64,000 bases of DNA, from positions 87,952,765-88,016,764 of the forward strand of contig CM037588.1 in assembly GCA_021018995.1 (NCBI GenBank). The letters run 5' to 3'. Numbering within the stretch: the first letter of the stretch is position 1; the number at the start of each line of letters is the position of its first letter. The notes under the pieces were generated by a model. It saw only the letters and a program-made list of their open reading frames with translations. It did no database searches and was not told the origin of the DNA. Source of the DNA: Chloranthus sessilifolius. Taxonomy: Eukaryota; Streptophyta; Magnoliopsida; Chloranthales; Chloranthaceae. Shown here in pieces: positions 780 to 63,112 of this stretch. The translations under genes were made by a program, and so were the position numbers.

Positions 780-1330
780 GCAGCTTCAGCCGTCGTGAGG
801 TTGCCTTGGTTTGCTCTTCAGGCAGTCACGCGGTAGAGAATTGCGCTCTCGCTGGATTTGGCTTCGCGAGGTTGAGTAGAAAACACAGTCTCAGAAGTCG
901 CGAGGTTGAAGTTCAAGTAGTCGAGAGGTTGCTCGATCTTCGCTGAACTGATCTTCGAGAGAGTGGCGTCACTTTTGCAAGGATGTTTTCTTCTTGAATG
1001 GCGCGAGAACTACGTGAGGAGTTCTTCTTCTGATAATTGCATCCCGCGGCAACTGCGCGACAGCTGCGCGAGGAATCTTCTGAAGCTCACTCTCCTCATC
1101 CGTTCTGAGCGAACTGCACGAGATTGAGAGAGGTCTGCTTTGAACTGCGTGACATCACGCGATGTGTTCTATTCTTGAGCTTCGCGAGAGCTGCACGAGT
1201 TTGAGTTTCTGAAGCTCTTCAATCACTCATCTGCACGAGAGGTTGCTGTAAAAGTCTTGGGAAGTTCAGTTGAACTGCGCGAGGCATATTTCTCCTGAAT
1301 CCTCTAAGGCTTGGGTCAGCTGTGCGAGGC
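780..1330 (-). repeat. Cluster of degenerate CGCGAG / CTGCGCGAG motifs in U3
   Basis: More than fifteen near-copies of GCGCGAG, GCACGAG, CTTCGCGAG or CTCGC occur in about 550 bp, for example near 838, 898, 998, 1055, 1068, 1106, 1178, 1232 and 1275. They are scattered rather than in strict tandem. The cluster is upstream of the TATA box in the LTR's own direction. It is the positional equivalent of the CTCGAG block in A0 and the TTCGAA block in A1/A2. CpG density is far above the surrounding AT-rich sequence. Confidence 0.75.
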
Positions 1331-1529
1331 TCATTTCAGGTCTGGATTCAGAGTTCATTCTTCTGAGGGATTTCTGGTGCCAAAGCAGGCTCCTTAACAG
1401 GATTCCTGGCCTTATTTCACTACTGATTATTACCTACACAAAACACTTAACAAGAACTTATTAGGAGGCTAAGGGTCTAATCAAAGGTTAAGTTAAGGGG
1501 TGAAAAGTGGTACTTTTCAGGTCTTAACA

Positions 1530-1964
1530 GCAGCAGGCATTGCTCTACAATTCCAACCAGCAGTCCCCTCATGGTTATGCACTAAGACAACATTTCCCAC
1601 ATCAGTCCCCCCAGCCAGGTCAATTAGCTTTGCCCCCACCTCAACCTAGAGCCCCCTCCTTTAAGGAGCATGTTTTGCCTTCATTGCAAACCTTAACTCC
1701 TTATCATAGACTATGAATTCCCATAGTCAGAGCATTAAGAAAATAGAGGATCAGCTGGGTCACATCTCAAATGCTCTGACAAGAAGGGATGAGGGCAGGC
1801 TCCCAAGCCAAATTGTGAATAATCCCAAAGGGCATTACATGATTGGTGAAGCTTCTTCAACCAATGAGGAAGCTAGGGCCAATCATGTATTGAGGACTGG
1901 TAAAGTGGTGGAGCACCAAGAGGTTTTCAATGGAAAAAGGTGTGCAAGAGAGAGAGAGGATTGA
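1530..1964 (+). pseudogene. Athila gag C-terminal fragment
   Basis: The translated stretch from about 1713 aligns by eye with A2 gag at 36177-36370. The shared pattern is HSxSIKKIE, then LGxxSNAL, a KRxEG-like stretch, NNPKGxxMxGEAS, and an LRTGK/LRSGK motif. This is the linker between the Gag nucleocapsid part and the protease in Athila polyproteins. The left end is cut by the reverse LTR. The right end stops in AG-repeat sequence at 1950-1964, where A0 has lost the protease, RT and most of integrase. It is non-functional. Confidence 0.75.
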
Positions 1965-4689: not shown

Positions 4690-4935
4690 TGCTCGAATAG
4701 TTCAGCAAATCCTTTAATCCTCTCGAGCAGTTCAGTAGGCACTCGAGTTGTTCATAAGCAACACATTTCAGCCTCTCGAGTGCTTAAAAGGGGCTATTTT
4801 TAACCTGTCGAGATCCTCACGAGATCCTGTTGAGGACAAAATGTTGAAGTTGCCTGAAGCCTCCATCCTCTCGAGAGTCACTCGAGATGCATCCTGAAGC
4901 AACTCAATTGGTCTAGATCCCCTCAAGATTTAAAA
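4690..4935 (+). repeat. CTCGAG motif cluster in A0 U3
   Basis: Exact or near CTCGAG copies occur around 4691, 4718, 4741, 4777, 4807, 4818, 4868 and 4879, often followed by CAGTTCAG or TTGTTCA. The core is a perfect 6-bp palindrome. It occupies the same slot (200-450 bp into the LTR, upstream of TATA) as the TTCGAA block of A1/A2. Confidence 0.75.
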
Positions 4936-5150
4936 TCTGAAGCACCATCTGCTCAAGGCACGGGTTCCAACAATTGCATTTGAACCTTCAAGGATATTTT
5001 TGGGATTTCACAGCTTCTAGGGCACACATCCCAATGTGCTTAGCTGTCCTACACATCCCAATGCAATTACTTGGCCACAAAAGGGCCACAATAGCAGCTC
5101 CAAACATCTTATTTCTGATTGGCTAAAGCACATAATGGTTGTTTGGATTG

Positions 5151-5160
5151 TATAAATAGA
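5151..5160 (+). promoter_or_regulatory. TATA box of A0 LTR
   Basis: TATAAATAGA lies downstream of an ATTGG (CCAAT) box. The equivalent is CTATAAATAG in A1 (29411), A2 (33713, 46119), T1 (17778) and T2 (48301). Confidence 0.8.
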
Positions 5161-5511
5161 GCTATAGTTGTCTTCTAAAAACATCTAGATTAGCTGGATC
5201 AGAGTTGGGATTAGCCTGAGTTCATTTATCTTTTTAGGGTTTTAATTTTCTTGTTACTTTTTCTCTTTCTTCTTCCTTAGCACAATAGCATTGTTGGGCT
5301 AAAGCTTTGGTTAGCAACTAGGTTTATTTTAGTTTTGTAATCAATTTTGTATAAGCATTGAGAGTAGTTTTGGGGATTTACACTGACTGTTGCCTTGAGG
5401 GCAATCATTGTAAGTTCTTTTTATTCAATGAAATGCCAATTTTAAAGCTTTATTACATCCTTATTTTTCTATAATTTCTCACATAGAGAGGTAAGGGTTT
5501 GATGAACCTAT

Positions 5512-6117
5512 GGTTGCTTGAGCTTGTAGCCCTACAACCATGGTGGCAGTAGTGGTATCCCTATTTCATCTCTAACCTCTGTGATTAGGATAACCTCTGG
5601 GATAGCCTGTGGCCATTCAAGTGGGCAGGGTATAGCCCTAAGGCTGGTCTGAATCACATGGTTGAGTTGGATTCTTCTTCTCTACACTTGAGCTTCCAGT
5701 CATGTGAGAGACAATTGCAAACCCAACTCCTCCTCTGTTTTACAATCTCATCATTAGTGAATTGACCTGAAATTTTGTAGAGATTGCAGACTTATGAGCT
5801 GGGTCATTGCAAGCCTTTTTATAACAATGACCAGCTGAATCTAAGTCGCCATTCAGTCTATGATTTCTTGTGGTTCTCACCTGATTTTCATAGATAATTT
5901 GATCCCATGAATGCATGAGCTTATAGCCTTGCAAACATAGTGTCTGTAATAGTTTTCTTATTCTGATTTAACCTTTTGATTGGATAAATCCTTGGGATAT
6001 TTTGTGACCATTTAAGTGGACAAAATACAACCCTAAGATCAGTTCATGCCTTTGGGTTAGGTTAAATTCTTCTACCTTGCAGATGTGCTTGTAGCCATCT
6101 AAAAGACTGTTGCAGAT
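5512..6117 (+). repeat. Tandem duplication (~395 bp) with two copies of the LTR hairpin
   Basis: Two diverged copies of a block run from GAGCTTGTAGCCCTACAA to the AAGACTGTTGCAG / GACAATTGCAAACC end. They start near 5518 and 5918. Each contains one copy of the conserved hairpin: 5605-5630 (arms GCCTGT / GCAGGG) and 5999-6026 (arms ATTTTGT / ACAAAAT), both with CCA-TTNAAG-TGG at the tip. A1 and A2 carry this block once. Confidence 0.65.
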
Positions 6118-6554
6118 CTATTTCTTGATTTGAGTTGCAGTGCTGATTTACCCATAACTGCCTACTTCTCATTATTTTTACTTTATTTTCCCATTCCATC
6201 ACCATTCTTCTTCTCCCTTCTTTAGCTATAGTTTATTCATATTTTTAGTTTAGTTGTGACACTTAAAGACCCTTTCTTTACCTTGCTTTCTAGTGTAGAT
6301 TTAGAGTTGCCATATCTGTAGCAAGATCTAGAGATTTACTACACAACCCTTGTGGTTTAGATCATCACTCCCTGTGGGACAAACTGTTATTAAAATTTTC
6401 TACAACAGGCCCTGTATCTTGCAGGACTGTGTGAGTTTGGTTTTGTGTTGTGTTCAATCCATTTTATTTTATTTTGTTTTTGCTTTTCTTTATTTTCCTC
6501 ATTTTTTTCTTTATCATTTTTATAATAAGAACAACACAATCAAATTCCCCAACA

Positions 6555-6840
6555 TACACCTTGAGTTTAATTCCTGATTTAAGTATTCCAAGTTGAACTA
6601 TGTAAAATGTACTTTAAATTAGTTCAAGATCTATGCTTTGAAATATGTTATACATGCTAGTGATTTTCCCCTATTGAGCTTAGATGTTAGCTTACCCTTC
6701 GACTGACTCTATCTATGTCATTAGATTGATCAGCTTTGTTCTACTTTACGTAGATGTACCAAGTGTTCTATAAGTAAGGGATCACCTTAACGGGTGATCT
6801 GATGGTCCGGGTTTCAGGTTAGGAAATCTGGGCTATGACA
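6555..6840 (+). repeat. 3' part of the G 5' LTR
   Basis: 6555-6700 matches 16432-16578 of the 3' LTR almost base for base (TACACCTTGAGTTTAATTCC and onward). The segment ends ...GGGCTATGACA directly before the PBS. Beyond the shared 145 bp the two LTRs differ, so one has a deletion or rearrangement. TACAC at 6555-6559 is the likely target-site copy made by A0. Confidence 0.75.
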
Positions 6841-6842
6841 GT

Positions 6843-10289: not shown

Positions 10290-11802
10290 AATTAGCAAAC
10301 CTTGTTATGTGATTGCGCCAATGGAAATATTTGGAAGATGTGTCACTTTATGACGCCAGGATAGAGGCACAAAGATCGAGAGCTCTAATGGCAAGCATCA
10401 TTATCTGATCTACTGTGTATGAGCTGTAGATGAAAGACACAGAGTTGGTGAAGATCAGGTAGGGCATGATTGAGGGTACTACACCAGATTTCTCCATCAG
10501 GGAGGATGGATCATTGTTGTTTAAAGGACATCTTTGTATACCGACCAATGCTAATCTACGACATAATATTTTGGAAGAGGCGCACAAGTCTAAGTACGCG
10601 ATTCATCTTGGTGGTACCAAGATGTACCAAAATTTACGAAAAAGTTTATGATGGAGAGGTTTAAAAAGGGATGTCGCTGAATATGATTCAAGGTGCTTAG
10701 TGTGTCAACAGGTGAAAGTAGATCACCGACATCCGTCAGGGTTATTACAACCTTTAGCAATACCAGAGTGGAAGTGGGAGTCCATTTCCATGGATTTTAT
10801 TAAGGGATTGCCAAGGACGGTAAAAGGACACAATGCTATATGGGTCGTCGTGGACAGACTGACCAAGTCTGCCCATTTCTTTCCTTACAATACCCAATAT
10901 ATAGCAAGTAGGCTTGCTGATATGTATTTGAAGGAGATTATTAGATTGCGTGGCATTCCTACGAGTATAGTTTCCGATCGTGACCCGTTGTATACGTCAC
11001 ATTTTTGGCAGAAATTGCAAGCTCAACGCTCCACCCACAGACGGATGGACAAACTGAAAGAGTAAATCAGATCATTGAGGACATGCTCAGGGCATGTATG
11101 CTTAATTTCAAAGGATCATGGGATCAACACCTACCGTTGATCGAATTTGCATATAATAACAGTTATCAGATGAGCATTGGTATGGCTCCCTATGAAGCAT
11201 TATATGGGCCAAAATGTAAATCCCCTCTAAATTGTGAAGAAATAGGAGAAAAATTTATTTTGGGTCTAGAGATACTGTTAAATGCTAACGAAGGTGTGTG
11301 TTGGATCTGAGAGAGATTAAAGAGTGCTCAAAGCAAACAAAAGAGTTATGCAACTTTGAGATGGACGAGTGTGGATTTTTAGATTGGAGACCATGTGTTC
11401 CTAAGGATTTCACCTTTGAAAGGGGTGATGCATTTTGAGACACATGGAAAACTTAGCCCACGCTACATTGGACCATTCGACATTGTGGGTCGAGTCGGTG
11501 AAGCTGCATACCGGATTGCATTACCTCTGCAATTAGAGAGAGTACACGACGTATTCCACGTGTCCATGTTAAGGAAGTATATCAGGGATCTGACTCACGT
11601 AATTGATGAGCAACGGATCGAGCTTTATGAAGATTTAACCATTAGGGAAGACCCTATGCATATTCTAGATAGAAAGGAACAAGTTCTACGTACAAAGAGT
11701 ATTCCGTTGGTACTTCTGAAATGGAAGAATCATTCACCAGAGGAGCTCACGTGGGAACGCGAGTCCGATATTCATGACTCGTATCCACAACTTTTTAAGT
11801 AG
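10290..11802 (+). pseudogene. G integrase with chromodomain-like C-terminus, decayed
   Basis: The integrase inserts the cDNA into the host genome. An H-H-C-C zinc finger (EEAHKSKYAIHLGGTKM, then CLVCQQ) spans 10570-10715. The catalytic core has SMDFIKGLP, DRLTKSAHFFP, VSDRDPLY and, after a frameshift near 11020, TDGQTERVNQIIEDMLR with the catalytic Glu. The GPY module is at 11449-11500 (KLSPRYIGPF) followed by VHDVFHVSMLRKY. The end (11690-11780: IPLVLLKWKNHSPEELTWE) is the chromodomain-like tail of Tekay/Del elements, thought to tether integration to marked chromatin. It is interrupted by a TGA at 11308 and frameshifts. Confidence 0.85.
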
Positions 11803-12436
11803 ATTGATGTAAATGATACTATAAGTTCAATGGAACTGTAAGGCGATATATAAGAACATATATTCTAGTATATCGTGGCAATTTAACACAAGAAAGAATG
11901 TGTGGTGATGTGTTTACGGAATTAGACGTAAATCTATAATAAACTTAGCTATAGGAAATAAATGAGGTAGAAAATGAGTGAAAGAACTGATAGAAAAGAA
12001 ATCAGAAGTAAAAAATAAACAAAACAAGCCAAAGTATTGAAATCGCGCATGCGATATTTAAGTCTCTTGCGCGACTGTCTCAGAGGGTCACGCGAGAAAA
12101 CTGGCCTTATCACTTGCTCACGTGACTATCTTAAGGGTTTAGATTTCTAAAGGGTTGTTCGCGTGACATTAGAAGTTGCTAGCACAATTGTTGATCTATT
12201 TAACGCCTATGGACCACATTTCTTCCAAATTTTTGGGCGCGAAGTTTCCCAAAGCTAGGGTTTCCATTCCCCAACCTTTCGATTTACATCCTCACGTTGA
12301 TTTTGCATCGATTCACTTCAGATTTGCTTCGGATTCTCCATAATCAAGCGTCATCCAAGGTTTTTCTTTCACATGTGGGGTAAAACTCTATCGTTTAACC
12401 TAATTTTTCTAAATTTTTGTTTTAAATCCTTAGAAG
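11803..12436 (+). other. Non-coding spacer between G pol and extra ORF
   Basis: A 634-bp gap with no ORF. It contains the GCGCGAC/ACGCGAG motif cluster (12042-12170) and, just before the ATG at 12437, a pyrimidine-rich leader. It is a candidate internal promoter for the extra ORF. Confidence 0.5.
12042..12170 (+). repeat. GCGCGAC motif cluster upstream of the G extra ORF
   Basis: Cores ATCGCGCATGCGAT (12042), TTGCGCGACT (12067), TCACGCGAG (12088), CTCACGTGACT (12117) and TTCGCGTGAC (12159) occur in 130 bp. The same word family recurs in the G 3' LTR at 15370-15632 and is not obvious elsewhere in G. Confidence 0.65.
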
Positions 12437-13698
12437 ATGGGACTGAAGAAGGTTTCCACTTTGAAACCCCAACCATCTAAGAAAGCCAAGGTAGCTCCTC
12501 CACCCGTTAAGAGGGAAGAACCTACTGATTGGTGGGAATTAAGAAAATTTGCAACGAATTGGGTAGTTCACGGTAGCTTGTTCAAGGACCATGATTCAAC
12601 CAAATGGATCCTCGAATATATAACTCCTACCGACCTAAAATCGCTTCTAGAACCGCCCCACACACACCATTGCCCTAGGCTTGTATGCCTATTTTACCAA
12701 AAGCTTCGAATGAACAATGATTAGATGGAATTCATAGTCAACATCGACGACTACAAATTTCATTTTGATATTGATGACATCTCCATTGTGATGGGCTGAC
12801 CATCATCTTACGTTGAGGGTGGACCGTTGCAACTGCCAATCCAAGCTAAAATAACTTTTCTAGAAATTGTCACCAACATGACCAAGGGATTGACCAGGTC
12901 TGGTTTATCAATCAAACGTGTCCAGTTGCCAACCCACATGTGGCCTCTGGACATAATCTTTTCCCAATGGGGCATGAACAGGAGAGGAGGGATGCACTTC
13001 TACAGGTCCTATATTCGGCCTACCAAGAGAAGTGGTTCTTCGCTCCTACAGTTGTAGCTGATGGCATAGTATATGCCAGGAACAATGCTGGGGAGGGTTC
13101 CCAGAAGCATCCACTTACGAGGCTACCTTATGCCTGACTGATTACCTATATGATTGAGACTCATGTCAACGAAAATGGGGAGAAGTTCCCAATGTCATCT
13201 AAAGAACCACGTATGACTAGAAATGTTGAAGTTTATATGTAAGAGGACTTAAAAGGAAGCCTAAATAGCCTCGAGAATAGAATCAACCACCATAAAACCG
13301 AAGAGCTTGCCCACCAAACCTAACAACAACAGCAACAACCATAGCAGCAACAAGCACCACCCCAACAACCTCATGTTGAGCTAGGACAAGCAGCTCGGGA
13401 CCCAGTACCTCCACCAATTCCTCCTTTTATTGGTGCTGACTTCGCGACGGAGTTGTTTTGATGGATGGACCTCCAAGACATTGCACTCCAACAAATCCAA
13501 TAGCAGAATGAGTTGCACACACGTCAGCTCTACTACCATGAGACGATGATCAGCGATGTGATGCAGTATGCCTATCCATCGGACTACCTTCAGCGCTTGG
13601 CTGCAGCTAGAGCTTATGTGCCAGAGGCTTCTAGTTTCGGAGCCGGTAGAGTGGATGGTGATGACGTAGACACACATATGGGTGGTGATGAGGACTAG
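12437..13698 (+). pseudogene. Extra ORF downstream of pol in a chromovirus; resembles the Athila accessory ('env-like') protein
   Basis: One reading frame with a single frameshift (12960-12990) spans about 420 codons. Every internal stop is explicable by one transition (12722, 12797, 13135, 13240, 13321, 13342, 13459 and 13501: CAA/CAG/CGA/TGG to stop). The N-terminus is basic with an NLS-like PSKKAKVAPPPVKRE. The core has LFYQKLRMNN, VNIDDYKFHFDIDDISIVMG, then GHEQERRDALLQVLYSAYQE and KWFFAPTVVADGI. These align by eye with A1/A2: LWYQN, IDDCDLTVTxEDIGNALGIP, GHxQERRxPILEALFHFSKG and FFNAPMLIFEAM. A Gln-rich linker and a helical, acidic tail (DVMQYAYPSDYLQRLAAARAYV, ending HMGGDED) follow. 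There is no signal peptide or membrane segment, so it is probably nuclear. From memory the core resembles the plant 'putative plant transposon protein' domain; an HMM search would decide. Confidence 0.65.
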
Positions 13699-14583: not shown

Positions 14584-14596
14584 AAGTTTTGGAGAA
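14584..14596 (+). promoter_or_regulatory. 3' polypurine tract of G (degenerate)
   Basis: The sequence TTCGAGGATAAAAATT (14564) followed by AAGTTTTGGAGAA at the LTR start is a decayed form of the Tekay junction (GAGGACGAATTT..., purine run, GGGAGAA, TGTAAC). Confidence 0.6.
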
Positions 14597-15369
14597 TGTA
14601 ACAACCTCAACAATTGGGAAACCGTGTTGACCAACTTGGCACGTGTATTGGTGCGGTGCAGTGTGTCGTGCCAGATATGACGTAGTGCAAGTGAAAATCG
14701 GTTAACACCTAAGTTAGATGTATGGGGTTCATGAGTGAGCCAAGTCACGTGTGAAACACTCAAGAGTGGTGTTTGTGTTTCACAAGGAAACCACCTAGGT
14801 TATAAGATAAGGGTAAAACCCCCTTTTCTTGTTTGTCTTAGAAGTTCTAAAGAGAGAGAGAGGGTGAGCTAGAGAGAAAGAAAAGGAGAGAGCTTGGGGG
14901 AAAGCTATACTTGAAATCAGGATCGTAGCCAATCTAGCGTGTAAATCCTCCCCGAGATTGATCGTTGATGCAAGGGTGATCTAAGGAGTGTGTGTTAGGG
15001 ATTTGCTCAGAGATTTGATAAGTGGAACATTCCTCCTTGATGGATTGTTGATCTCCCTCTCAATCTTTCATCAGAAGCTTCAAATATCATAAGGGAACCG
15101 AGAAGAAGGATCGCGGTAGTGATCGCTAGAGCGTGGACTCCAAAAACATTCCGAAGGCATCAAAGGATACCTTCATTTGAATCCAAAAGCATTCCATGCC
15201 AAGTAAATGAGGTAAGATCTTGTGATCTTAGGTAGTTTGGATGTGTATTAATGGTAGTAAATGGGGGCAATGAATGCCTTAAAAGTGTGGCATTAGTTGC
15301 GTATTAGGGTTAGGTAAGAAGGGTGGATAGATAGAAAATCTGATTTGAGGAAGAAACCCTAAAACTATG

Positions 15370-15632
15370 AAAGTCACTCATGCGACTTTCTTCCTCGCTT
15401 GCGCGACCTTTAGTTGCTCGTGCAAGTGAAGCTTTAGAATAGGTGTAAAATTGTGTCTGAACAGTTGCTCACGCAACTGAGACAGAACTTAAGAAATCGC
15501 TCACGCAACTATATCAGGTTGGGAGCTTTAGAATGATAGGCAGGCATAAGTTGCTCGAGCGAGCTCGAACGACTGAGAGGTGCCACAAGGACTTGCTCGT
15601 GCGACCTTGGGACTCGCGTGTGCGACTTAGCA
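15370..15632 (+). repeat. CpG motif cluster in the G LTR
   Basis: Words of the form (A/T)TGCGCGAC, CTCACGCAACT, CTCGTGCGAC and CGAGCGAGCTCGAACG appear about ten times (15377, 15397, 15415, 15465, 15490, 15551, 15560, 15595, 15612, 15623). Some are dyads, such as GTTGCTCACGCAAC and TTGCTCGAGCGAG. The equivalent words occur in front of the extra ORF (12042-12170). Unlike in A and T elements, the cluster lies downstream of the putative TATA. Confidence 0.65.
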
Positions 15633-16167
15633 AGTTTAGGTTATTTTGGATTTTTCTTTGAGAACTTTCCAAATCTTTGGTGTGTATGGTCTTTTAGGCT
15701 TAGTTATTGGTCTTTGGACACCTTAAATTGTAGGTTTGATGCGAACTATTTCCTAGGGATTCTCGTCCATTTTACATGATCGTGTGAACTTCGTACATTT
15801 AGGGGAATTCAATATCATGATTTCCAATATGAATTGTATAGATAATGTGAACGTAAAAGCATTTGTGTATGTGAAATGTGAATGTGACAAGCATGTGTGT
15901 GCGTGTGTGAACGCAATAAGCAGGTGAATATGTTAAGAAATATGTGAAAGTGATAAGTGTGATAAGCAAGTGTGTACGTGAATGTGACAAGTAAGAATGT
16001 GAAACTCAAAACCTAGCTATGATTAATCACATTGATTTAATTACACAATGAATAAGTATAAGTTAGAATTGCACAATGATTTAAGGTTTCTGTGAAATGA
16101 ATTCCCATCGTGTATTTAGTACAACGGGATATCTGTACATCATGGACTGGCTAATGGTCATTGTAAA

Positions 16168-16249
16168 GCTCAAGTGACCCTATTAACATAGCTCAGGGGC
16201 TTGGCAATGTGGCTCAAGTGACCCTATTAACTTAGCTCAGGGGCTTGCA
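16168..16249 (+). repeat. 41-bp direct duplication in G LTR
   Basis: GCTCAAGTGACCCTATTAAC followed by a TTAGCTCAGGGGCTTG-type end occurs twice in tandem. Confidence 0.7.
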
Positions 16250-17299
16250 ATCGCATAAATTGTTCTTTAACGACGGTGTGTCTGGGATTCCCATCAGTAT
16301 CACTGTGGCTTCTAATCCTATTTATGCTTGGGAGATTATTTAAGTTAAGATTTAAGTCATTTTAAATTTAAGAAGCATGCAAGAATGAGCTAAGTTAGAA
16401 CGTGAGAGATAAGAAGCAAGATATGTGTGTGTACACCTTGAGTTTAATTCCTGATTTAAGTATTCCAAGTCGAACTATGTAAAATGTGTTGTAAATTTAG
16501 TTCAAGATCTATGCTTTGAAATATGAAATGCATGCTAGTGATTTTCCCCTATTGAGCTTAGATCTTAGCTCACCCTTCGACTATACGTCACAGGTATAGA
16601 CGTTGAGATAGGCTTGGAGAATTTTGGTTGAGGGGAAGATCCCAATTACGTATCTAAGGAGGAATCGGATCTTCTGCTAGAAGATTGCTTCCCTTAGGGG
16701 ACTTCTTTTGGATATATATACTTTTCGGAGATTTGTGTAAGGCTTGGTCTGTCCAGCCTTTTCATTTTGGTTTAGAATACTAGATATTAGAACATGTATA
16801 TGGTTGTTTTGAACCATTGTTTGGGTGATGATTGTTTATCACTGGTGGTTTGTTTCGATTCTGTTGAGCTTACGGTTTACATAAGGACAGAACCACCATT
16901 TTGCCATTTTGTTCGTTGTTATATTGTAGACACCCAAATTTGGCCCAAGGCCCGATCGGAACACATTTTGAGAGAGGTACACTTTCGAGCTTTTGATGGC
17001 ATGTATGAAACCCTTAGGAACCTTTCCAAACCCTTAGGAACCTTCCCGAACCCTTAGGAATCAACCCTAACCTTTCCAAACCCATTAGAACCCTTTCTTG
17101 GACCAGTGTCAAACCCTCCAGAGTAGTGGTTGGAAAGAGGAGTGACAAAATTTATACAGACCTCTTCAAGAGCAGAATTATATACCATTAGAAAGAAGAT
17201 TTCTCCAACTTTCTAAAAAGCCAAAAATCACCTCAATCGGAGTTATATATCAAAAGTTATGACTATTTACAAATCAGATTATTTTGGAGGAATTTCTAC

Positions 17300-17419
17300 C
17301 TGACGCAACTAATAGTTGCGCCAAGCCATTTTCCCCAAAATTTGCCTGGCGCGACTATACGTTGCGCCAGGCTTTTTTCCTCCAAAAATGGTTTGGCACA
17401 ACTAATAGTTGTGCCAGGT
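17300..17419 (+). repeat. Three palindromes GCGCAACTA-A-TAGTTGCGC in T1 U3
   Basis: Copies are near 17301-17323, 17345-17369 (GCGCGACTATACGTTGCGCC, partly degenerate) and 17393-17417 (GGCACAACTA-A-TAGTTGTGCC). In the first and third, two 9-10 bp arms flank a single A. They are spaced about 45 bp apart, each embedded in TGGC...GCCAG, roughly 375-490 bp into the LTR and upstream of TATA. Confidence 0.85.
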
Positions 17420-17777
17420 ATAAATGGGTCCCCCAACCCCTCGCGAAGCCAACTTCCAGGCTACTGTACAGAACTGTTTTACTGTACATTTGCCTGGCAT
17501 ATGAACAGTAACCTCTGGATTTTGCCCCGAAATTCATAATTAGGGTTTGACTTATTGACCACCTCAGTCCTTGAGGTGTGTTTTGATAACTTTGTTGCAC
17601 CCTTTTAATGCCTATTTGCAACCGTTCAAGTGGCTTAAGGCCTCACCCCATCATCCACCATTGGAGGACCTTCTCACACATCTCAAGGCTCCAAAAACCC
17701 TAGGAATCCTTTGATGTGAGATTACCTAATTGCTAAACCCATTTAGCTCATAAGTGGTTTCCTAATCCACCTATTTC

Positions 17778-17787
17778 CTATAAATAG
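17778..17787 (+). promoter_or_regulatory. TATA box of T1 LTR
   Basis: CTATAAATAG is followed by GAGCCCCCC, the same arrangement as in T2 (48301-48310). Confidence 0.8.
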
Positions 17788-40775: not shown

Positions 40776-41070
40776 TTGGGGTTTCATTTCAAACTCTTTT
40801 TGCAGAGCGACTCTTCACTGCTACCCTACTTCGCTCTCTCCTTGCACGAGTTAACAAGTTTACTACCCTTTTATAACTGATTGTGTAGATCATTTGCATT
40901 TTCAGAGAAGGATTTCAGCTTGTAATCTGGGGGATTTCTGCAAAGCAAATAACTCGTTCAAACATAAACCCTAGATCTCGGTATTTCTCTACCCATTCTC
41001 TCTGGTTATCAGTTAGTAATTTGATTCTGTGTCAGCATCTATTTTGGGCATTTTTATACATCAATCTAGA

Positions 41071-45290: not shown

Positions 45291-47115
45291 TGTTGACAAG
45301 TGAAAAATACCAATTTTCACCCCTAAACTTAAGTCTTGATAGACCTTTGAGAGAACTAAATAAGTGTTTTAAGTGCCTAACAATAAAGACAAATTTTAAC
45401 CATAAAAACAGCTTAAAAGTGCCAAAAAGATGACAATCCATGTCAGTCCAAAGAAAGGAAGTGAAGAAACAACCTCATCAGCTGTTGAAAGGTCTAAAGT
45501 GAAGAGGCAAAGACCTGTAAGAGAAGCAGGGAACAATTCGACCAGAGAAATGCACTACAGAGTTCTTTTCGCAAAGAACCTGCACTTTTCGTAAAGAACC
45601 TTGAACTCTGCGAAAAGGACTAAAACTCCAGGCTTAGCTTTCGAAGAGCATCTAAACTCCTCGAAGAGAAGATTGAACTTTGCGAAAAGGAGAAAACACA
45701 ATTCGAAGAGAAGATTGAACATTGCGAAAAGAGATTCAGAAGTCACAGCACTCTGTGAAAAGGTATTCTGAAGATTCACAACTTTAACAAGGGCAATTCA
45801 GTAATCTGTTGCACGCGTCCCAATGCATTTTAAAACCTAGGGACATTCCAGAGGGTTCTAAGCATGAAGCGAAGGAATATTTCACCCCACGTGAGCACCT
45901 AGAGAGGGAATAACTTGGCAGGAACTTCTAGAAACTCTAAACAAACTTTCAAAATGCATAACAGAATTGATGCCTTTTTTACCTGATTGGTTGAACCAGA
46001 TCGAGGAATTCTAATTGGCCAGAACAGATCTGGATCCCCGTGCTCGACTACCATTGGTAAATACAGATCTGAGAACCTCTGATTGGTTGATACACATCTG
46101 AGCTGGACCTGGGGAAAGCTATAAATAGACGAAGCATTTGCCCAATTAGGGCATCCAGATTTTGAGTTTCATTTCTAATCTCCCATTTCCCAGCCAGACA
46201 ACTTGTCTGCAATCCTTGTAATAGCCTACTTTGTACTTGCATTTGAGAGCTATGAGATACTACTGTAACTCAAAGGAGAGTTTGCATCCAAGACTGCAAA
46301 TCCGAGAGCTGTTAAGCCGTGCTCTGTAATTGTAATGGTGGATTTTAAAAGGTTGCTGTAAACTATGCATTCTCCATTGGACTCATGTCAAGGGTTCCCT
46401 CTGATCTCCTCAGTACATTAGACTCCTTTAGATTCATTGTTTTGCATGCAATTTCCCTTGATTCATTAATCCTGTGAGAATTAGTGTTGGTAACCTAGTC
46501 TCTTACAACATTTGTAGTGATGTTTTTTGTTCTGAATTGAGGATTTGGATTAAAGACTATTGGATGGTTTGTGGCCATTAAAGTGGACAGACCATAGCCA
46601 TAAGTGTAAGCCTAATCCTTGAATTAGATTTATCTCTCTTACATCTGTGCTTGTAGCCAGATGAAGATTGGATCACCTCTGTTGAGCTGCAGTTATTCTC
46701 ATTAGATTTCAAAGACCAAATCAGATTTAGATATTACTTCTCCATCTTTGTTTCAATCATTCCCCCAACTCGGATCTGGATCATTTAGTTTAAATTTTTC
46801 TTTGTTTTTAGTTAGTTAAACGTGACAAATTCAAACCTCTCATCTTATCAGTTTTCTAGATAGGATAAGAAGCCAGATCTGGTAGCTCAGATCTGGAGGT
46901 TTATCTTACATTTTAGAAAAATTCTCTGTGGACGATCTTTCACTCACTTACTTTTAAAACTTGCTACAATTGGCCCTAATCTTGCAGGCTAATTCTCTTC
47001 TAACTGTGCTAATATTTCTTTATTTGGTTATATAGTCTAGAGCCACTGTAATTTAGCAGCTATAAATCTGTTTTCAAAACTCACATAAATCAAGCACACT
47101 AAGAAGTAAACAACA
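45291..47115 (+). repeat. A2 3' LTR (1825 bp)
   Basis: Paired with 32878-34699. TTCGAA cluster 45535-45765, TATA 46119-46128, hairpin 46564-46595. Followed by target duplicate GCAGC (47116-47120). Confidence 0.92.
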
Positions 47116-47416
47116 GCAGCCATACCTTTTTAGCTCTCAGGACCAACCTATGATCTACAGCAAGTCCCGCTGAGATAGGAGAAAACAAATGCTAATGCCG
47201 ACAGCAGCGACAGGGAGGGGGCAGTGGACTTCGTTACCAGATCAAGAAGAGTCTCAAAATAGCCCGAGGCAACAACACTAGCAGCACAAACCCAACCCGA
47301 AGGAAAGAAAGACAGCATAGTAAACCCCTTCGAGAAGATGAGTCGAGAACATATACTGGAGACTCAGCTGAGAAGAATGTCTGCCCATATACTATGGGAT
47401 TTGTTGATGACGTCCC
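47116..47416 (+). pseudogene. T1 gag end / protease start, cut by T2
   Basis: After the A2 target site the T1 sequence resumes. 47337-47411 encodes MSREHILETQLRR and WDLLMTSL, equivalent to the start of the T2 protease ORF (54485: MVREHILETQLKR, WDLLITSP). It ends at 47416, where the T2 LTR begins; GTCCC (47412-47416) is the putative T2 target site. Confidence 0.7.
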
Positions 47417-49011
47417 TGTAGACACCCAAATTCGGCCCAAGGCCCGATCAATCTGTACTTCGAGAGAGATGTACGCCTGTGCCCCCGATGGCACCCCCTG
47501 AGCCCTTAGAAACGTCCCTAGACCAGTAGAAATCACCCTAAGACCTTTAGAGCCATTCCCCCAATCCTTAGAAGTCACCCCTACACCCTAGAATCCCTTC
47601 CCAGACCTACCTTAAACCCTTCTGGCGGTTGATGGGAGGAGAGCTACAGAATTTCACACAGATAATTTCCAAGGGTGAGCCATATATCATTGGAAAGAGG
47701 ACTTCTCTAGATTTCCAACAAGCTAATGATCACCCAATTTGGAGCTATGGTTCAAAAGTTATGGCCGATTGAAGTTTCACATAAAATCATAGGACTTTTA
47801 CTCAGGCATAGATATTACATACGCCCAGCCATTTTTACCCCAGATTAGTCAGGAGTATATATTATATACGCCTGCCTATTTTGAGGAAAATTTGGCCGGG
47901 CATATATAATATATACGCCCAGTATAGGTGGGACCCACCACGGACTTCATCTTCTCAAAACTCCCCTGATTTTGGTGAAATATACTGTTCCTAAACTGGG
48001 CGTATATAATATATATGCCTAGCTTAGCTACAGTAACTATCATCGGTTGCTCGAATTTCCTTCATCTAGTTTGACCCTTTGACCATCCCCTTAGTTAAGG
48101 TGGGTGTCATGAGCTTGGTTGCACCCTCTTTGAGCTTATTGGCAACCCTTAAGTCACCTTTGGTCTCAGCCCATCATCTGCCATTGAAATCAGTTTCCCC
48201 AAAACCCTGGGACCTGGAAAACCTAGAAAACCTTAGATGGGGAGATTACCTAATTGCTAAACCCATTAGCTCTTAATTAAGCCCCTAATCCACCTCTTCT
48301 CTATAAATAGAGAGGCCCCCCTCTTCCTTAAGGGTTAGAAAAAATTGGAGGTTAAGGATTTGGAGCTCAAGAGAGAACCCTAGTGAGAGAAAATGAACTT
48401 ATTTACCAGAATTCCAGCAAGCTTAGTTCATCTTTTCCAATCCATTTCAACCATTAGATCACTCCCTTTAGCTAAATTCTAGCCTTTGGCCTTACCCTAC
48501 ACTTCCTATTTTATTGAATCCTAGCATTAGAACCCATTTTCACACGATTTAAGCCATCAGAAGCATGCCAAAGCGAAGATCGTCCACGGTGCAACAAGGG
48601 CCCGTGAGCTCCGGCTCACCCCTCTCTTCCTCTACCTTCTTGGTGTCTCCTCCGTCCAAGGATTCAAGTCATTATGCCGCCAAAATTTTGGTTTGGCTCA
48701 AAGCTTGAAAGGACCGTATTGCCTTCGGGGAAGGGGAAGCTCCGCCCTTTTTATTTTTATTTTGGCCATAGATAGAGACCGCTACGTGCGGGTTGATCGG
48801 GTGCCTAAACCCTTCCCGATCGATAACCGAAGCCCCTACCCTAGAGCCTTTGGCAAAGACCGGTAAATCAGAGTCATATTTAGCACTTCGATGCTCAAAA
48901 TATCGATATGATGGTTTCCTGGGTCACCAAAAGCTCCGGGTGGCGACTCTACATTTTCGTTGAAAGCGAGCGCATCACTGCGACGGGCTCGAGAGGATCC
49001 ACGGTCGCACA
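47417..49011 (+). repeat. T2 5' LTR (1595 bp)
   Basis: Begins TGTAGACACCCAAATTCGGC and ends ...GTCGCACA. Contains four GCGTATATA-A-TATATACGC-type palindromes (47812-48022), TATA CTATAAATAG (48301-48310) and the CCTTCCCGATCGATAACCGA block (48811). The backbone aligns with the T1 LTR throughout. Confidence 0.85.
47812..48022 (+). repeat. Four palindromes of the GCGTATATA-A-TATATACGC type in T2 U3
   Basis: Copies near 47812 (degenerate), 47850-47872, 47899-47919 and 47999-48018. Arms of 9-10 bp around a central A, each flanked by CAGG/CCGG and CCAG/CCTG. They lie at the same LTR offset as the T1 palindromes (about 395-600 bp). Confidence 0.85.
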
Positions 49012-49013
49012 GA

Positions 49014-49031: not shown

Positions 49032-50502
49032 TTTCACCCTAGCGCTTCCCCTCTTGTTGGCCTTTCCTTTTATTTTATTATTTTACTAACCATGGCTGTT
49101 TTTTTTATTCTAATTTGCTACTATTTTTCGTTATTTTTTGTTGTTTTTACTAACATACTCACCCCTACAATTCAGTCCTTTCCATGCCTTAGCCGTTTGG
49201 CGGGCCTACTTGCGCCTTAAATTTCAGCTTTTACGATTCTTGTCATATAAGCCGCCTTAGCCGTTTGGCGGGCCCGCTTGCATTTATTTTCACGTCATTT
49301 AAATTTCGGTCATTTACAAGCCCTAGCCGTTTTGGCTGGCCTACTTGCGCACTTTATTTCGGTCATCATATTTCACCTTTGAGCGCTGGCTCGTTGAGGC
49401 GGCACTGGTTTGCCATCCCTAACCTGATTTTGGACTTAATCTCACTCCCCTATAAAAGTTTGTAATTAAAAGTGAACCAACAGTATGGGGACATAATTGA
49501 ATTTATTTTTGAGTTGTTGGGCAGTTTTCGGGGGGTTTAGGCACAGATACAATTTACCCGGTTCCCAGTAAGGGGGCAGCCCTAGTGGTGATGATCCTGA
49601 AAAGAACCACCCCTTCCAGTACCTGGGAAGGCGCTTGCGCCGGAGGTATATCGGTTGGGTTGCCAATTCCGATCAAGCTGTAAAACCCGCATTGGTGAGA
49701 GCGTAGAAAACCCAAAATTCAGCCGTGTATCCCTAGGAAACGGAAAGGAGGGACCCGATAACATACACAGCAGTCCCCGGGAGCATTTCTCCCAAGAAAC
49801 CAGTTCAAAGACCCACATTCGGGCTTGCTGTCCACTGTCAAAATATAATTGACAGAACCTTTTGCCCGGCGTATATAATATATACCAAATTAAAATCCTC
49901 AGATTTAAGCGGATATATAATATATCGCCACCAATCTGTATTTTTTGGTGGCGTGCATATATATACGCCAAAGATATATAGATCCCAACTTGAGGCCCAA
50001 TCCACCACCCCAATTCCCCGATTAGCGGTATTAGTGTCCGCGGTAGCCTCCCACATTCTCTAACACCCAATATGCCCCCGCCCAGTCAAAAGAAGGCGAC
50101 TTCTTATTGATTTGCTCTGGGGGATTGGGTCATTTGCGTGGATTCCCTCGTCTTCAATAGAACGAAAGGGTTCCCTTTCGCTTCTTTCGAAGTGTGTCGG
50201 ATCCCGCCGTGGGACCTACTAAAGGCGCATATGTCGCCCGAAACGGGAGTTGACCCTGGGCACCAGGTCATCATTCATCTAAGTAGAGGGGAGTTAATTG
50301 CTATTTAAAAAAAAAAGGGAGAAAGAAAATCCTCATCTTCAAAAAATCCACCTTCAAAAAAAAAAAATCAATCAAAATCAAAAATCAAAAATAACAACAA
50401 AAAATTCACTTTTCAAAAACAAAAAAAATAAAATCATCATCATTTTCCAAAACCCAAAAAAAAAGAACACACAAAGAAAAACAATCAAAAATATACCTTT
50501 GT
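49032..50502 (+). other. T2 untranslated leader with repeats and palindromes
   Basis: No ORF. Three copies of the CCTTAGCCGTTTGGCGGGCC-type leader repeat (49182-49345) match those of T1. Further family palindromes are at 49868-49885, 49910-49930 and 49952-49973. An A-rich stretch (50306-50500) leads to gag. The same order is found in T1 (18532-19982). Confidence 0.7.
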
Positions 50503-52182
50503 GTGCCCGTCACTACGGCGACCTCAAACCCGGCCCGTAGGAGAAGAACAAGGAAGGTATTTGGCCCTTACCCGCGACATCGGTACAACACTCGTCAGCG
50601 GATCATGTCAAGAGCCGATACATCCCCACCATCATCCCCTTCCCATTCTCGGATAGGAGAAGACCCGATCTCCGACACCTTCACCCAAACCAGGTTCGAT
50701 ATCACGGGCCCATTTGGGGCACCCGTGTTCACCTCCACTTCATCCCCTTCCCTCACATTCTCCCAACATACCCCTTTTTCATCCCCTACTGAAACCCCTC
50801 ATTTCCCAACCGATCCCTACATCCCCATCTCCCATCCAAACACCCTTACCGCATCCCCATACTTCCAAAGACCCCCTAGGGAGTCCCATCCCCCGCCTAC
50901 TTCCCACGTTCCATCCCTCTCATCACCCATGCCCCCAACATCCTACATCCCATCCACCCCATCTCACATACCATTCCCACCACATGGCCCATCCACATCC
51001 CAACATACCCCCCCATTTACCCGGATCATGCCCAACTTCTCCCAACCACCTCCATCCTTAAGTGATCCATCATCCCCCACTCTCACACCTGAATCCATGC
51101 CCTCGATGGAGGACATGAGAACGATGTAAGCTCCGTGGGCTGCTTCTCGCAACCCTACCTCTCAAACCCTGCATCCAAATCTCCAAAACCTCCGTACCTC
51201 ATTCCCTCCTAACCATGCCCAACCACCCATCGTCCATACCTCCTAAAATCCCCCACCTCAATTCCAGACCCAAACCCACACAAATCCATGGGCCCCAGCC
51301 CAAACACCTCTAGAGCCAGGGGCCCAGGCCCAAAACCCTCAAAACCCATGGGCCCAAGCCCAAGCCCATCAGGCCCAGGTCCCAGCCCAAACACCTCCAA
51401 ATCCATGGGCTCAAGCCCAAGCCCATCAGACCCAGGCCCAAGCCCAAAACCCTCAAAACCCATGGGCCCAAGCCCAAGCCCATCAGACCCAGGTCCAGGT
51501 CCAAGCCCTCCAGGGCCTTTGGACCCAAACCTATCAAACCCAAGCCCAGGGCCCATGGACACAAACCCAACCCCCTCATGGCCCAGTAATCCAAACTCAA
51601 CAAGGCCCAGTGGCCCAAAGTCATATTAAGACCCACACCCAGGCCCAAGGCCCGTCAGTCCAAGCCTTCCAAAACCATCAAACCCAAATCCCTCAAACCC
51701 AAGGCCCATCCGCCCATGCTCATCAAAGCCCATTCACAAACCCCATACCCCCCCACCAATACCCTTCATTCACCTATACCCCTTACGCCCCCATCCCACC
51801 TCCAACGGGAAATCCAATCCATCCCATTCCTCAAAACCACAACATCCCACCACCTCAATCACACCCCCATCACCCCCAGAACGTGCACCCAACTCAGCAC
51901 ATCACTTACACACAAACCGCTCATCCATTTATCCCCTCCCATCCCCTACAAACCATATGGCCTCACCAGTTCATCCAACCCATCACCCCCCAAGTCCAAA
52001 TAGCAGAGCTCGCCCCTCACCAATATAATGATGAACAGTATGAGGATGAGATTCGCAACAATGGAGGAGTTGCCAGTTTTAACCCTCCCGGGCCCACCAT
52101 CATCACACCTAGGGTCGAACCAAAATCGGGGAAGGGTCCTCAGCCTCAAAGGAACCAGAGCAAATTGAAAGAACAAAGATAG
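50503..52182 (+). pseudogene. T2 gag N-terminus and proline-rich region
   Basis: Basic start (RRRRTRKVFGPYPRHRYNTR), then DITGPFGAPVF and a long Pro/Ser/Thr-rich region to the TAA at 51127. 51288-51629 encodes a repeat protein with units of about 19-20 residues built on KPMGPSPSPSDPGPSP (at least three copies). Then 51610-52182 is Pro/His/Gln-rich and ends near EDEIRNNGGVASF. Frames change between blocks. Extended proline-rich Gag is typical of Tat/Ogre elements. Confidence 0.7.
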
Positions 52183-60320: not shown

Positions 60321-60633
60321 TGTCAAGAAAAGAGAGATTAAGAGAAGATGTGTCCTATCCTACCTGCTTTTGTTTGGATCCCTTGAGCCTTTCCTCCTCT
60401 TTGTTGTGCCACCCATGTGAATATTGGATCAGATCCCGATCAAGTATGTCGTCTCTACCACGGCGTCTGACGCATGGCCAAAGGAAAAGACAGAAGGCTA
60501 GACCAACCCGGGAAAGCTGACCTTCCCACGTTTAAAGAAAAAACCTACATCTCACAAACAGGGTTCAGCCATGCTCAAAAAAGGGACCCGCTGGTTTGGC
60601 CTTGTGGTTACCGGCATCACAAAAGAAAAAAAA

Positions 60634-60955
60634 AATTCCAAAAAAAGATAATAGATTTCCCTTTCCCATAAAAAGCCCCACACTGTGGAGGAGAAAATTC
60701 CAAAAAAGATGATAGATTTTCCTTTCCCATAAAAAGCCCCACACTGTGGAGGAGAAAATTCCAAAAAAGATAATAGATTTCCCTTTCCCATAAAAAGCCT
60801 CACACTGTGGAGGAGAAAATTCCAAAAAAGATAATAGATTTCCCTTTCCCATAAAAATCCTCACATTGTGGAGGAGAAAATTCCAAAAAAGAAAATAGAT
60901 TTCCCTTTCCCATAAAAAAACCCCACTTTGTGGAAGAGAAAATCCCATAAAAAGT
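60634..60955 (+). repeat. 61-bp minisatellite, about five copies
   Basis: The unit contains TTCCAAAAAAGATAATAG, ATTTCCCTTTCCCATAAAAA and CCACACTGTGGAGGAG. Anchors at 60681, 60742, 60803, 60864 and 60924 give periods of 61, 61, 61 and 60. CCACACTGTGG is a near-palindrome. The long minus-strand ORF over it is a by-product of the repeat. Confidence 0.85.
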
Positions 60956-61578: not shown

Positions 61579-62894
61579 CTACCGAAACCAGGCTGGGAGT
61601 AGGTAATTCCTTAGATACCAGCCAACCCTCGTAATCCAGTGAGACGACGCCCCCCTGAACCAAGCTACACATATGTGCTGATTGGCGGTTTCCCAGAGGG
61701 CAGCTATGCGATCAAGATCACTAAGAGAACCTCGAGAGAATATCAGAGAGCATAAGGGTGGCCGTGCGGTACACGGCACATGCTGAGTATACCCGAATTG
61801 ATGAAGCACCCGAGATGGGAAGTAGTATGTGCCGCCAGTCAACCCCAAAAGTGTGATGCCCTCACAATCCCGAGAGCGGACAATCGGAAAGGTGTTGTCC
61901 ATCCAGGGAAGTTGCCAGTTCAGCTCTGCATCAGATAGCCACAGGCTCAGTTCCTCGACGCTCCCACGAGGCAGTCTCGAACTCCGGACCAGAAAACCCC
62001 GAGCCACATCCCCTCTAATCAAGCAGAATCTCGGCACAGGCCCCATGATAGCCAAATGCTCTCCTAACCAGATCTGAAAAAGGAGCGGGCTCCCGCTGAG
62101 AGTCCCAACCCGGCCCGAGGCCGCAGCATCCAAGCCTCGATACATCTCTACCAGGACCAGGTGTACCAATGAGCGACCTCCCTCCAATTCGGTCAAAGCA
62201 TCACATAGTCCAAGGGAAAAGCTCTCACCCCCAGTGAAGAAGAGAACTTTCGACAGCAAATAAAGGGCAAAGGCCTTCACATTGAAGGGATCTTGAATAG
62301 GCAATTTTCGAAGGCTCGAGTAACCGAAAAGTTCTCTAAGGAATTTCACCGAACACCTAGTGGGCCCTCCGGCGAAACATTTCTCATATCCACCCTTTTT
62401 AAGCCAAGGACCGCGTGGATTGCCTTTCCATACCTTGGTTTGGGCACTACTTTGGCAAGACCTCGATGCATCTTCAAGCCAGTGATGGAGGCTAGCTCTT
62501 CCAAAGTTGGGGTCAGCTCCCTAGACCCAAATTTAAAGAAATGGGCCCTATGGTCCCATGATGCCAAAGCTGCCTGTAGTAGGTTGGGCAACAGAGGAAC
62601 AACGAGGAGAGAGGAAAGGCGGGACAACCCGAGGCCATTCAGAATAGCAAGCTCGCTCTCAGCCAAACTGTCATGCCATTTTTGCAAAAAGCTAAGCCCC
62701 GAGTCCAAACAGGGAAGTATACCAGCCCCCGTATAAAAGCTTGGGCCCCCTTTTAAAGGTAGGTTCATCGACGTACAAAGATGTTGTTTATGGAATCGGT
62801 CAATATATGACAATGAACCCACTAGAAAAAGAGGGGAAAGAAAGAAAATAAAAGGAGGGGCAAAACAGCCAAACCAAAGTAGAAGAGGAGACAA
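61579..62894 (-). pseudogene. Antisense accessory ORF with plant mobile domain (PMD) similarity
   Basis: Two minus-strand frames, 62894-62346 (182 codons) and 62349-61579 (256 codons), overlap by ATGA. N-terminal hydrophobic start, then LQKWHDSLAESELAILNGLG, LLPNLLQAALASWDH, and ELTPTLEELASITGLKMHRG, the PMD-type signature. This is followed by FNVKAFALYLLSKVLFFTGG, SLVHLVLVEMYRGLDAA and PLLFQIWLGEHLAIMG. PMD is found in MULE-like and other plant transposon proteins and in the antisense ORFs of Tat elements. A single -1 shift between the frames is more likely a mutation than programmed. Probably nuclear or DNA-associated; no function is proven. Confidence 0.7.
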
Positions 62895-62942
62895 GGGGGG
62901 ACCAGGCTCGGGTTATAGGGAGCCCGCTAAGCTCAATCTATA

Positions 62943-63112
62943 GCAGGCGTATATATTATATACGCCAAGGCAAATTTTGAACCATTTTTGCCCGGCATAT
63001 ATAATGTATACGCCCGGCCATTTTTACTGAGGATTGGTCAGGCGTATGTAATATATACGCCCGGCTATTGATTGCTGAATCTTGGCTTGACGTATATAAT
63101 ATATACGCCCAG
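62943..63112. repeat. Four family palindromes upstream of the antisense ORF
   Basis: Near 62946-62966 (GCGTATATATTATATACGC), 62994-63013, 63041-63060 and 63089-63108 (CGTATATAATATATACGC), about 48 bp apart. They are the same motif as in the T2 LTR (47812-48022) and leader (49868-49973). They begin 49 bp before the first ATG of the antisense PMD frame. Confidence 0.85.

Follow-up and report, generated by a model that had tools for sequence, protein, structure and literature searches.

A 64-kb window of the 2.17-Gb genome of Chloranthus sessilifolius (CM037588.1, 87952765-88016764) consists of nested Ty3/gypsy long terminal repeat (LTR) retrotransposons, several kinds of which have one CpG word of their own clustered both in the LTRs and upstream of a 3' accessory gene, and across the elements compared this word tends to vary together with the accessory protein. 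The arrangement gives good support to a paired-promoter circuit that would be read by one trans-acting factor, and the covariation is best explained if that factor is the accessory protein, which is thus probably a self-encoded regulator of its own LTR and gene, similar to Tas of foamy viruses and VANC of VANDAL elements. Each family would own a private circuit of two promoters, the LTR promoter and an internal promoter ahead of the accessory gene, both carrying arrays of one roughly dyad-symmetric word beside a TATA-like box, with a further leader array in Tat elements. One trans-acting factor would read both arrays. The proposed factor, the accessory protein (PF20167-like in Athila elements and chromoviruses, a plant mobile domain (PMD) protein in Tat/Ogre elements), is a putative nuclear regulator that would activate or de-silence the gene encoding it and the LTRs of the family concerned.

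Sequence sample and elements

The window contained the elements A1, A2, T1, T2 and G, a truncated element A0, and a reverse LTR, R. The wider sample added 290 kb of the same genome, in tiles of 10 kb each, 26 of them surrounding the window and 3 elsewhere. Labels from L004 onward denote these 10-kb tiles or contigs beyond the window, and coordinates after a colon are positions within a tile. Nearly all of the elements studied lie in one 324-kb stretch. The elements have LTRs and a Ty3/gypsy-type reverse transcriptase (RT), RNase H (RH) and integrase. A1 and A2 are presumably Athila-type, as judged from resemblance and the primer binding site. T2 was assigned to Tat/Ogre on a second RNase H (PF13456, 28 bits, cut-off 21.6) and a G-patch (PF01585, 30.4 bits, cut-off 22), both of which we take to be marks of that lineage, and G was assigned to the chromoviruses on a chromodomain in its integrase tail (PF00385, E 5.4e-6). 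The features of the window were as follows.

32878-34697, plus strand: A2 5' LTR, 95% identical to 45291-47115; array at 33134-33360
40482-40775, plus: A2 internal array of CTTTTCGAAAAG, with TATA-like TATATTTAACCCC at its end
41071-42012, plus: A2 accessory gene with an interrupted frame, encoding a basic N-terminus and a PF20167-like domain
43096-43542, plus: C-terminal part of the A2 accessory gene, which looks coiled-coil-like by eye, 72% identical to A1 by tblastn
45291-47115, plus: A2 3' LTR; array at 45535-45765
23704-24010, plus: A1 internal array, ending in CATATTTAAACCC
24307-25253, plus: A1 accessory gene with an interrupted frame, encoding a basic N-terminus and a PF20167-like domain
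25868-26791, plus: A1 accessory gene, C-terminal part, coiled-coil-like with an acidic Ser/Asp tail (by eye)
28806-29060, plus: A1 3' LTR array; LTR at 28543-30410 by homology to the A2 LTR
11383-11799, plus: G integrase tail and chromodomain (PF00385)
12040-12280, plus: G internal array
12437-13400, plus: interrupted accessory gene of G, whose product is homologous to the A accessory protein
15350-15640, plus: G 3' LTR array; LTR at 14596-16430, 82-84% identical to L016:1172-2820
47416-49012, plus: T2 5' LTR, 94% identical to L004:3477-5069 (3' LTR); dyads at 47805-48019
49868-49973, plus: T2 leader array, beyond the LTR end
61582-62912, minus: T2 antisense accessory gene, PMD (PF10536), frame interrupted
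62946-63109, minus: T2 internal array of dyads, upstream of the antisense gene and with a minus-strand GCC-NNN-TATA
17302-17415, plus: T1 LTR dyads; TATAAATGGG lies 3 nt past the last dyad
19338-19491, plus: T1 leader dyads, T1 word
4690-4890, plus: A0 LTR array, CTCGAG word; LTR at 4722-6371, 88.4% identical to L016:3539-5174
780-1300, minus: R, CGCGAG array, 5' LTR of the L014 element

R was connected to the L014 element by 93% identity between window positions 846-1529 and L014:1-681, and the accessory gene of that element lies just left of the window. The T1 LTR (16925-18299) was 89.9% identical to L005:2548-3946, which is the 3' LTR, lies outside the window and carries the T1 word. A further T1-type element spans L011 to L029, with LTRs in both tiles (90.6% identity) and RT in L012; it bears the T1 word in its LTR, its leader and upstream of a divergent PMD gene (48-65% to the T2 PMD) that is split by the nested L013 element. 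The 5' LTR of G (window 6555-6704 plus L016:1172-2820) appears in turn to be split by the A0 element.

Arrays in the window

A reading of the window made from sequence alone had placed motif arrays in the A elements, G, T2 and T1, and they were found there; the words of A0 (CTCGAG) and R (CGCGAG) were clustered as well, with 10 matches in R to its own motif. For the A family the clusters stood where described, with CTTTTCGAAAAG as their word, and exact TTTTCGAAAA occurred only twice. The motif learned by expectation maximisation (EM) from the A1 LTR array alone was CTTTTCGAAAAG; when the 300-bp windows of the 64 kb were ranked by matches to it, the first five places went to the arrays of the three A LTRs and to both internal arrays (11, 10, 9, 9 and 9 matches; next 2). 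A search for CTTTTCGAAAAG with up to three mismatches peaked at the same clusters (11, 10, 9, 9 and 8 per 300 bp; next 3). With the motif of the G LTR, the G internal cluster was the best other window (5 matches; next 2).

The T2 LTR motif learned by EM scored the internal array equal to the LTR (4 each), with a chance window at 3 and the leader among windows with 2. Dyads of about 21 bp begin in T2 at 47805, 47852, 47899 and 47999 in the LTR and at 62946, 62994, 63041 and 63089 in the internal array, with a common spacing of 47-48 bp; the leader has one at 49868 and two weaker ones by eye. The leader array is internal because the T2 LTRs are 47416-49012 and L004:3477-5069, and the latter position also led us to reject the internal array as a candidate 3' LTR. 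T1 dyads begin at 17302, 17348 and 17395 in the LTR and at 19338, 19385 and 19471 in the leader; EM did not recover the T1 motif, although the dyads are plain on direct inspection. Under palindromic scoring, none of R, T1 and T2 exceeded the best of 12 null runs of the motif learner, and a crude dyad count was uninformative. Other repeats in Tat elements were a 61-bp tandem repeat of 5.2 copies in the T2 3' region (60632-60954), a GGGCCCAAGCCC-rich 57/114-bp tandem repeat at 51264-51555 inside a T2 open reading frame (ORF) without a Pfam match, and an extra T2-type dyad pair about 2 kb inside the 3' LTR in two elements (L004:1397-1465 and L008:5754-5822).

The CpG character ascribed to the arrays was strongest in A, A0 and R, less marked in G and the T2 internal array, and weak in the T2 LTR. 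Observed/expected CpG was 0.84-1.36 in the A arrays against 0.12-0.40 in their flanks and 0.73 against 0.53 in the T2 LTR, and the T1 leader showed no enrichment (0.69 against 0.70). At the end facing the accessory ORF, the internal arrays finish in a TATA-like box by eye (CATATTTAAACCC in A1, GTATATTTAACCCC in A2, CTATTTAACG in G). Among Tat elements, GCC-NNN-TATA follows the promoter-proximal dyad in the T1 and T2 LTRs and, on the strand of the gene, in three PMD promoters (T2, L008 and L025b); in the T2 LTR the TATA begins 3 nt past the dyad ending at 47919.

Accessory genes and their upstream arrays

Within the window, the internal array lies upstream of the accessory ORF, in the direction of that ORF, in A1, A2, G and T2, including the antisense gene of T2, as the sequence-only reading had described. 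Twelve more accessory genes were found beyond the window by tblastn with window pieces, giving 16 with approximate starts: A1, A2, G, T2, L008/9, L010, L013, L014, L017, L019, L021, L023, L025a, L025b, L027a and L027b. Their products are PF20167-like in Athila elements and chromoviruses and PMD proteins in Tat/Ogre. A 61-aa PMD piece (L012:8745-8927) was rejected as a separate gene; it was read as belonging to the L027a gene, into which the L013 element has inserted, an LTR of which (L027:612-1644) ends beside the PMD match at 1652.

By reading, a palindrome or dyad array was present upstream of all 16 genes. When CG palindromes were counted blind over the 1 kb ahead of each gene (1.7 kb for L017), 13 of the 16 genes had a cluster at p<1e-6 and 14 had one at p<1e-5; among 250 random 1-kb windows the proportions were 11.2% and 17.6% (Mann-Whitney p 1e-7). 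L008/9 and L027a failed this count because only two or three long dyads occur there, and for G the best word in the count was not its array. The Athila words were CTTTTCGAAAAG in A1 and A2, CCTATCGATAGG in L013, CCTCTCGAGAGG in L019 and a mixed CCT[ACG]TCGA form in L010; L014, L021, L025a and L027b had CGCGA-form words. Chromoviruses carried ACCGGTCG (L023), ATCGATCGAT (L017) and GCGCGAC (G), and Tat elements carried TATACGCC (T2, L008, L025b) or the T1 word (L027a). A wider palindrome scan gave 32 clusters at p<3e-8, several of which were microsatellite-like (TATACGTATA) or of unknown context and were left unused. No accessory gene was matched in 30 kb from another chromosome.

One word in the LTR and internal arrays

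Arrays of palindromes both in the LTR and upstream of the 3' accessory gene were present in all 12 elements for which the element's own LTR array was located; it was not located for L017, L023, L025b and L027b. Ten LTR pairs were direct repeats: T2, L008/9, L010, L014, L019 and L021 (87.6-94% identity), L013 (91.6%), the T1-type L011/L029 element (90.6%), G (82-84%) and A2. The LTRs of A1 and L025a were assigned by homology, the latter in L024 with no pair found. Motifs learned from internal arrays alone led to the LTR arrays of the element in question over distances of up to about 28 kb. When 6-mer profiles were compared (n=12), the internal array matched its own LTR best in 9 elements and a same-word sibling in the other 3 (A2 to A1, L008 to T2, L014 to L025a), a result reached in 0 of 20000 permutations, so that the sharing of a word between the LTR and the ORF-upstream array, by which the sequence-only reading was to be judged, extended to 12 of 12. 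For the ten elements with confirmed pairs the score was 9/10 (0/20000), and by word class it was 8/8. An earlier set had given 8/10 (0/100000), with 2/10 for control pieces 2 kb away.

Masking CpG with five bases on either side lowered the match from 9/12 to 2/12 and z from 7.7 to 4.1, in a set that wrongly included L023. An array at L020:3350-3700 had been taken as the 5' LTR of L023 and was rejected; because it runs opposite to the related L023 stretch, L023 was removed and the tests were rerun without it and with the T1-type element, and the results hold.

Covariation of the word with the accessory protein

Similarity between words was compared with similarity between accessory proteins, in partial tests with RT removed where indicated, and permutation counts are given in brackets. 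For internal words, the correlation with the accessory protein was rho 0.65 in 12 elements (0/2000) and 0.62 in 9 Athila elements (0/2000); given RT, it was 0.62 in 10 elements (0/5000) and 0.82 in 7 Athila elements (1/5000). The converse correlation with RT given the accessory protein was -0.07 in 10 elements (3195/5000) and 0.37 in 7 Athila elements (372/5000). The LTR test weighs more, because the internal array adjoins the gene. LTR words, with L023 excluded, followed the accessory protein with rho 0.45 in 9 elements (7/5000) and, given RT, 0.52 in 7 elements (48/5000), and the correlation with RT given the accessory protein was -0.43 in the 7. Athila elements alone gave 0.53 (n=8, 1/5000) and, given RT, 0.58 (n=6, 67/5000); with L023 included the values were 0.54 (n=10, 14/5000) and, given RT, 0.45 (n=8, 228/5000). 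The predicted covariation was thus borne out for internal words, with RT removed too, and more weakly, in the same direction, for LTR words.

Accessory proteins

The A1 and A2 accessory proteins have a basic N-terminus (net +15 in the first 50 aa of A1), a PF20167-like domain that scores below the cut-off, and then parts that by eye are Pro-rich, coiled-coil-like and acidic. The G accessory ORF aligned with the A accessory protein in two of three comparisons (pairwise E 1e-6 and 6e-7; none in the third), which places one gene family in both Athila elements and chromoviruses. The T2 accessory protein matched PF10536, the PMD, at 42.1 bits, above the gathering cut-off of 34.9. The transmembrane segment of plant env-like proteins was not seen: of 42 open pieces listed for 11 accessory loci, some of them in frames that are perhaps not coding, 39 had a Kyte-Doolittle 19-aa maximum below 1.6, including all A1 and A2 pieces, and the value was exceeded in L010 8954-9631 (1.62), L023 6843-7121 (1.64) and L025 1680-1910 (1.84). 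Searches of protein sequences with pieces of the A1 and T2 accessory genes gave nothing at E<=0.001, a PDB sequence search gave best E values of 0.29 and above, and scans of viral contigs gave no match.

The A accessory gene is under purifying selection: dN/dS between A1 and A2 was 0.10 (160 codons) and 0.05 (114 codons). The corresponding dS values, 1.7 and 1.5, are near saturation, against 0.24-0.56 in five pol pieces, so the module that runs from the end of pol to about 26.9 kb seems to be far older than the remainder. The pol genes of A1 and A2 are about 91% alike, but dS is near saturation in their accessory modules (23560-26950 and 40320-43600), which points to a probable exchange of the module between families. 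The internal array forms an island of conservation between the two, with 85 of 105 motif columns identical (81%) against 140 of 197 other array columns (71%), 44 of 73 in the upstream spacer and 174 of 291 in the 5'UTR.

Athila-type plant DNA with an open gag-pol frame of about 2000 aa was also met in two bacterial assemblies, which bear the names Solirubrobacter sp. CPCC 204708 and Geminicoccus harenae; the contigs concerned (L001 and L002) are 99.66% identical over 9013 bp and are probably contamination. An antisense 148-aa ORF downstream of pol (L001:6680-7126, minus strand) is coiled-coil-like by eye and has TGTCAAA words upstream. A PF20167 search of two genomes reached via the L001-L003 contigs gave no match, but its control was also silent and it was not used.

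Relation to known systems

The comparisons in this section draw on portions of the published reports. The repeated motifs (RM boxes) of Sireviruses are element-specific CpG palindromes present in high copy in LTRs upstream of the TATA box and clustered upstream of an ENV-like gene (Bousios et al. 2010, PMC2829016), the same layout as here. Among 13 RM-bearing Sireviruses, the nine with ENV have copies in the linker and the four without ENV have none there, and an internal ENV promoter was suggested (PMC2829016). This layout is a direct precedent in Ty1/copia, and the Ty3/gypsy version described here is a variant of it. The Sirevirus case differs in lineage, in its CGG-CCG core and in that no common binding factor was found, and the consulted portion of PMC2829016 contained no comparison of the motifs with the ENV protein; the present elements are Ty3/gypsy Athila, Tat and chromoviruses, have other cores and PF20167-like and PMD proteins, and their covariation was examined. 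The CGG-CCG core is absent from most of the words here, with the L023 word ACCGACCGGTCGG coming near. A literature search, outside which subscription papers mostly lay, returned neither the array layout in Ty3/gypsy elements nor a plant accessory protein binding its own LTR.

The proposed circuit would work like Tas and VANC and is a member of neither system. VANDAL elements are DNA transposons with a VANA transposase and VANC, a class that the present elements, with their LTRs, RT, RNase H and integrase, do not fit. VANC, the analogue named earlier, is one of those available: a TE-encoded protein, short specific motifs in repeats, and a factor and sites that evolve together are similar to the proposal, and binding and demethylation were shown for VANC (PMC5735166). 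The layout is nearer to that of foamy virus Tas, a transactivator of an LTR promoter and an internal promoter; the likeness is one of layout only, the foamy virus being a spumaretrovirus.

Individual accessory genes have counterparts as well. A 3' accessory ORF of sunflower Athila resembles that of the A elements in its partial PF20167 similarity and its predicted nuclear localisation signal, but the Tekay accessory ORFs are 5', another Athila one has a predicted transmembrane helix, and arrays of cis sites did not appear in the portion consulted (PMC11728184). The antisense gene of T2 can be compared with Grande gene23, a 3' antisense accessory gene with its own promoter and a nuclear protein (PMC7264820), and with Retand TRP28, a 3' antisense accessory gene with predicted DNA binding and family-specific tandem repeats (PMC11963269); both differ from it in their protein domains, and the portions consulted mention no sites in common with the LTR. 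MAIN and MAIL1 are PMD proteins linked to a DOWN promoter motif of the genes that need them, as T2 PMD would be to its dyads, but they are host genes, and direct binding was left open by the authors (PMC7156037).

Weighing the explanations

Several observations weigh against the accessory protein as the factor. An accessory ORF had been expected in every element, and this did not hold: T1 has LTR and leader arrays, yet its 3' part (L004 after T2, to L005:2548) has no PMD or PF20167-like match, and a Ty3/gypsy element on another chromosome (L031, 3232-4480) carries one palindrome word, CAATCGATTG, similar to that of L017, in its LTR and leader, while its 1.6 kb from RNase H to the 3' LTR is integrase-like by eye and gave no accessory match. 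Arrays therefore need no recognisable gene in cis, and the factor for these two may act in trans or be a host protein. Four of the 13 RM-bearing Sireviruses keep LTR motifs without ENV, and six ENV-containing ones lack RM boxes (portions of PMC2829016); Tekay accessory proteins have been likened to dsRNA-binding proteins (a portion of PMC11728184). The accessory proteins showed no known DNA-binding domain. PF20167 (Transposase_32), scanned at thresholds of 0.01 to 10, gave sub-threshold matches in 7 of 19 distinct pieces of the interrupted genes (best 28.4 bits, cut-off 45), and AlphaFold models of A2 and T2 pieces were too poor to read a fold (pLDDT 43.7 and 36.6). The covariation of internal words may partly be hitchhiking, since the internal array adjoins the gene. 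The RT-removed LTR test rests on 7 elements with p of about 0.01, and the same 7 without removal of RT gave 0.36 (398/5000). A signal of z 4.1 remained after CpG masking, no LTR array of its own was found for L023, the word being absent from the rest of that tile, and GCC-NNN-TATA is not universal (ACC-AGG-TTTA in L027a; GCC-CAG-CATA in the L010 LTR copy). With nearly all elements from a single stretch, the sample gives no independent replication.

A rival arrangement is that each family recruited a different host transcription factor, with sites for it in both the LTR and the internal promoter, and that the accessory protein has some other role. The arrays of L031, T1 and the Sireviruses without ENV, elements in which no accessory gene was recognised, are consistent with it, and Sirevirus motifs mostly matched stress-related plant sites in PLACE (PMC2829016, in part). 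A host factor is nevertheless unlikely, as the words track the accessory protein and not RT: the chromoviruses G, L017 and L023 have 58-72% identical RT-RH, accessory proteins of 32-36% identity and three different words, and the Athila words CTTTTCGAAAAG, CCTATCGATAGG, CCTCTCGAGAGG and the mixed form of L010 differ by symmetric base changes.

Drift of tandem repeats or concerted copying, in which gene conversion or template switching would keep the LTR and internal arrays alike with no binding factor, was also considered. The T2 arrays share 119 bp at 77% as well as their spacing, so copying is possible there, to the detriment of the regulatory reading in that element. In the 10 other correctly paired elements the best-scoring internal-LTR matches (two listed for each) were at most 31 bp, on which long copied tracts in all elements were rejected; the words persist where the identity of the flanks has fallen to about 60%, and TATA-like boxes at both sites are not predicted by copying, which makes it highly improbable as the general cause. 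Least probable is a role of the dyads as hairpins in genomic RNA, for packaging or as small-RNA targets, for although the T dyads are long (up to 20/20 self-paired) and present in leaders, the A words span just 12 bp and few of them are perfect, 6 of 10 T2 dyad matches have one or two unmatched arm pairs, and positions in the LTR and in a minus-strand promoter beside TATA fit DNA sites.

Implications

Regulation by the accessory protein is the explanation preferred here, and it may, more tentatively and with somewhat less than an even chance, be general. The 3' accessory proteins ('env-like', Transposase_32-like and PMD) could then form a broad class of self-encoded, fast-diversifying, sequence-specific regulators, each family having a dyad code to itself, such as CCT-N-TCGA-N'-AGG with a variable N, that is recognised both in the LTR and at the promoter of the accessory gene, and the host PMD regulators MAIN and MAIL1 could be tamed members. 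If the preferred explanation is true, accessory genes that have often been guessed to be envelope genes would encode private regulators, the separate control of families with similar pol genes would be explained, and natural sequence-specific activators or anti-silencers would be on offer.

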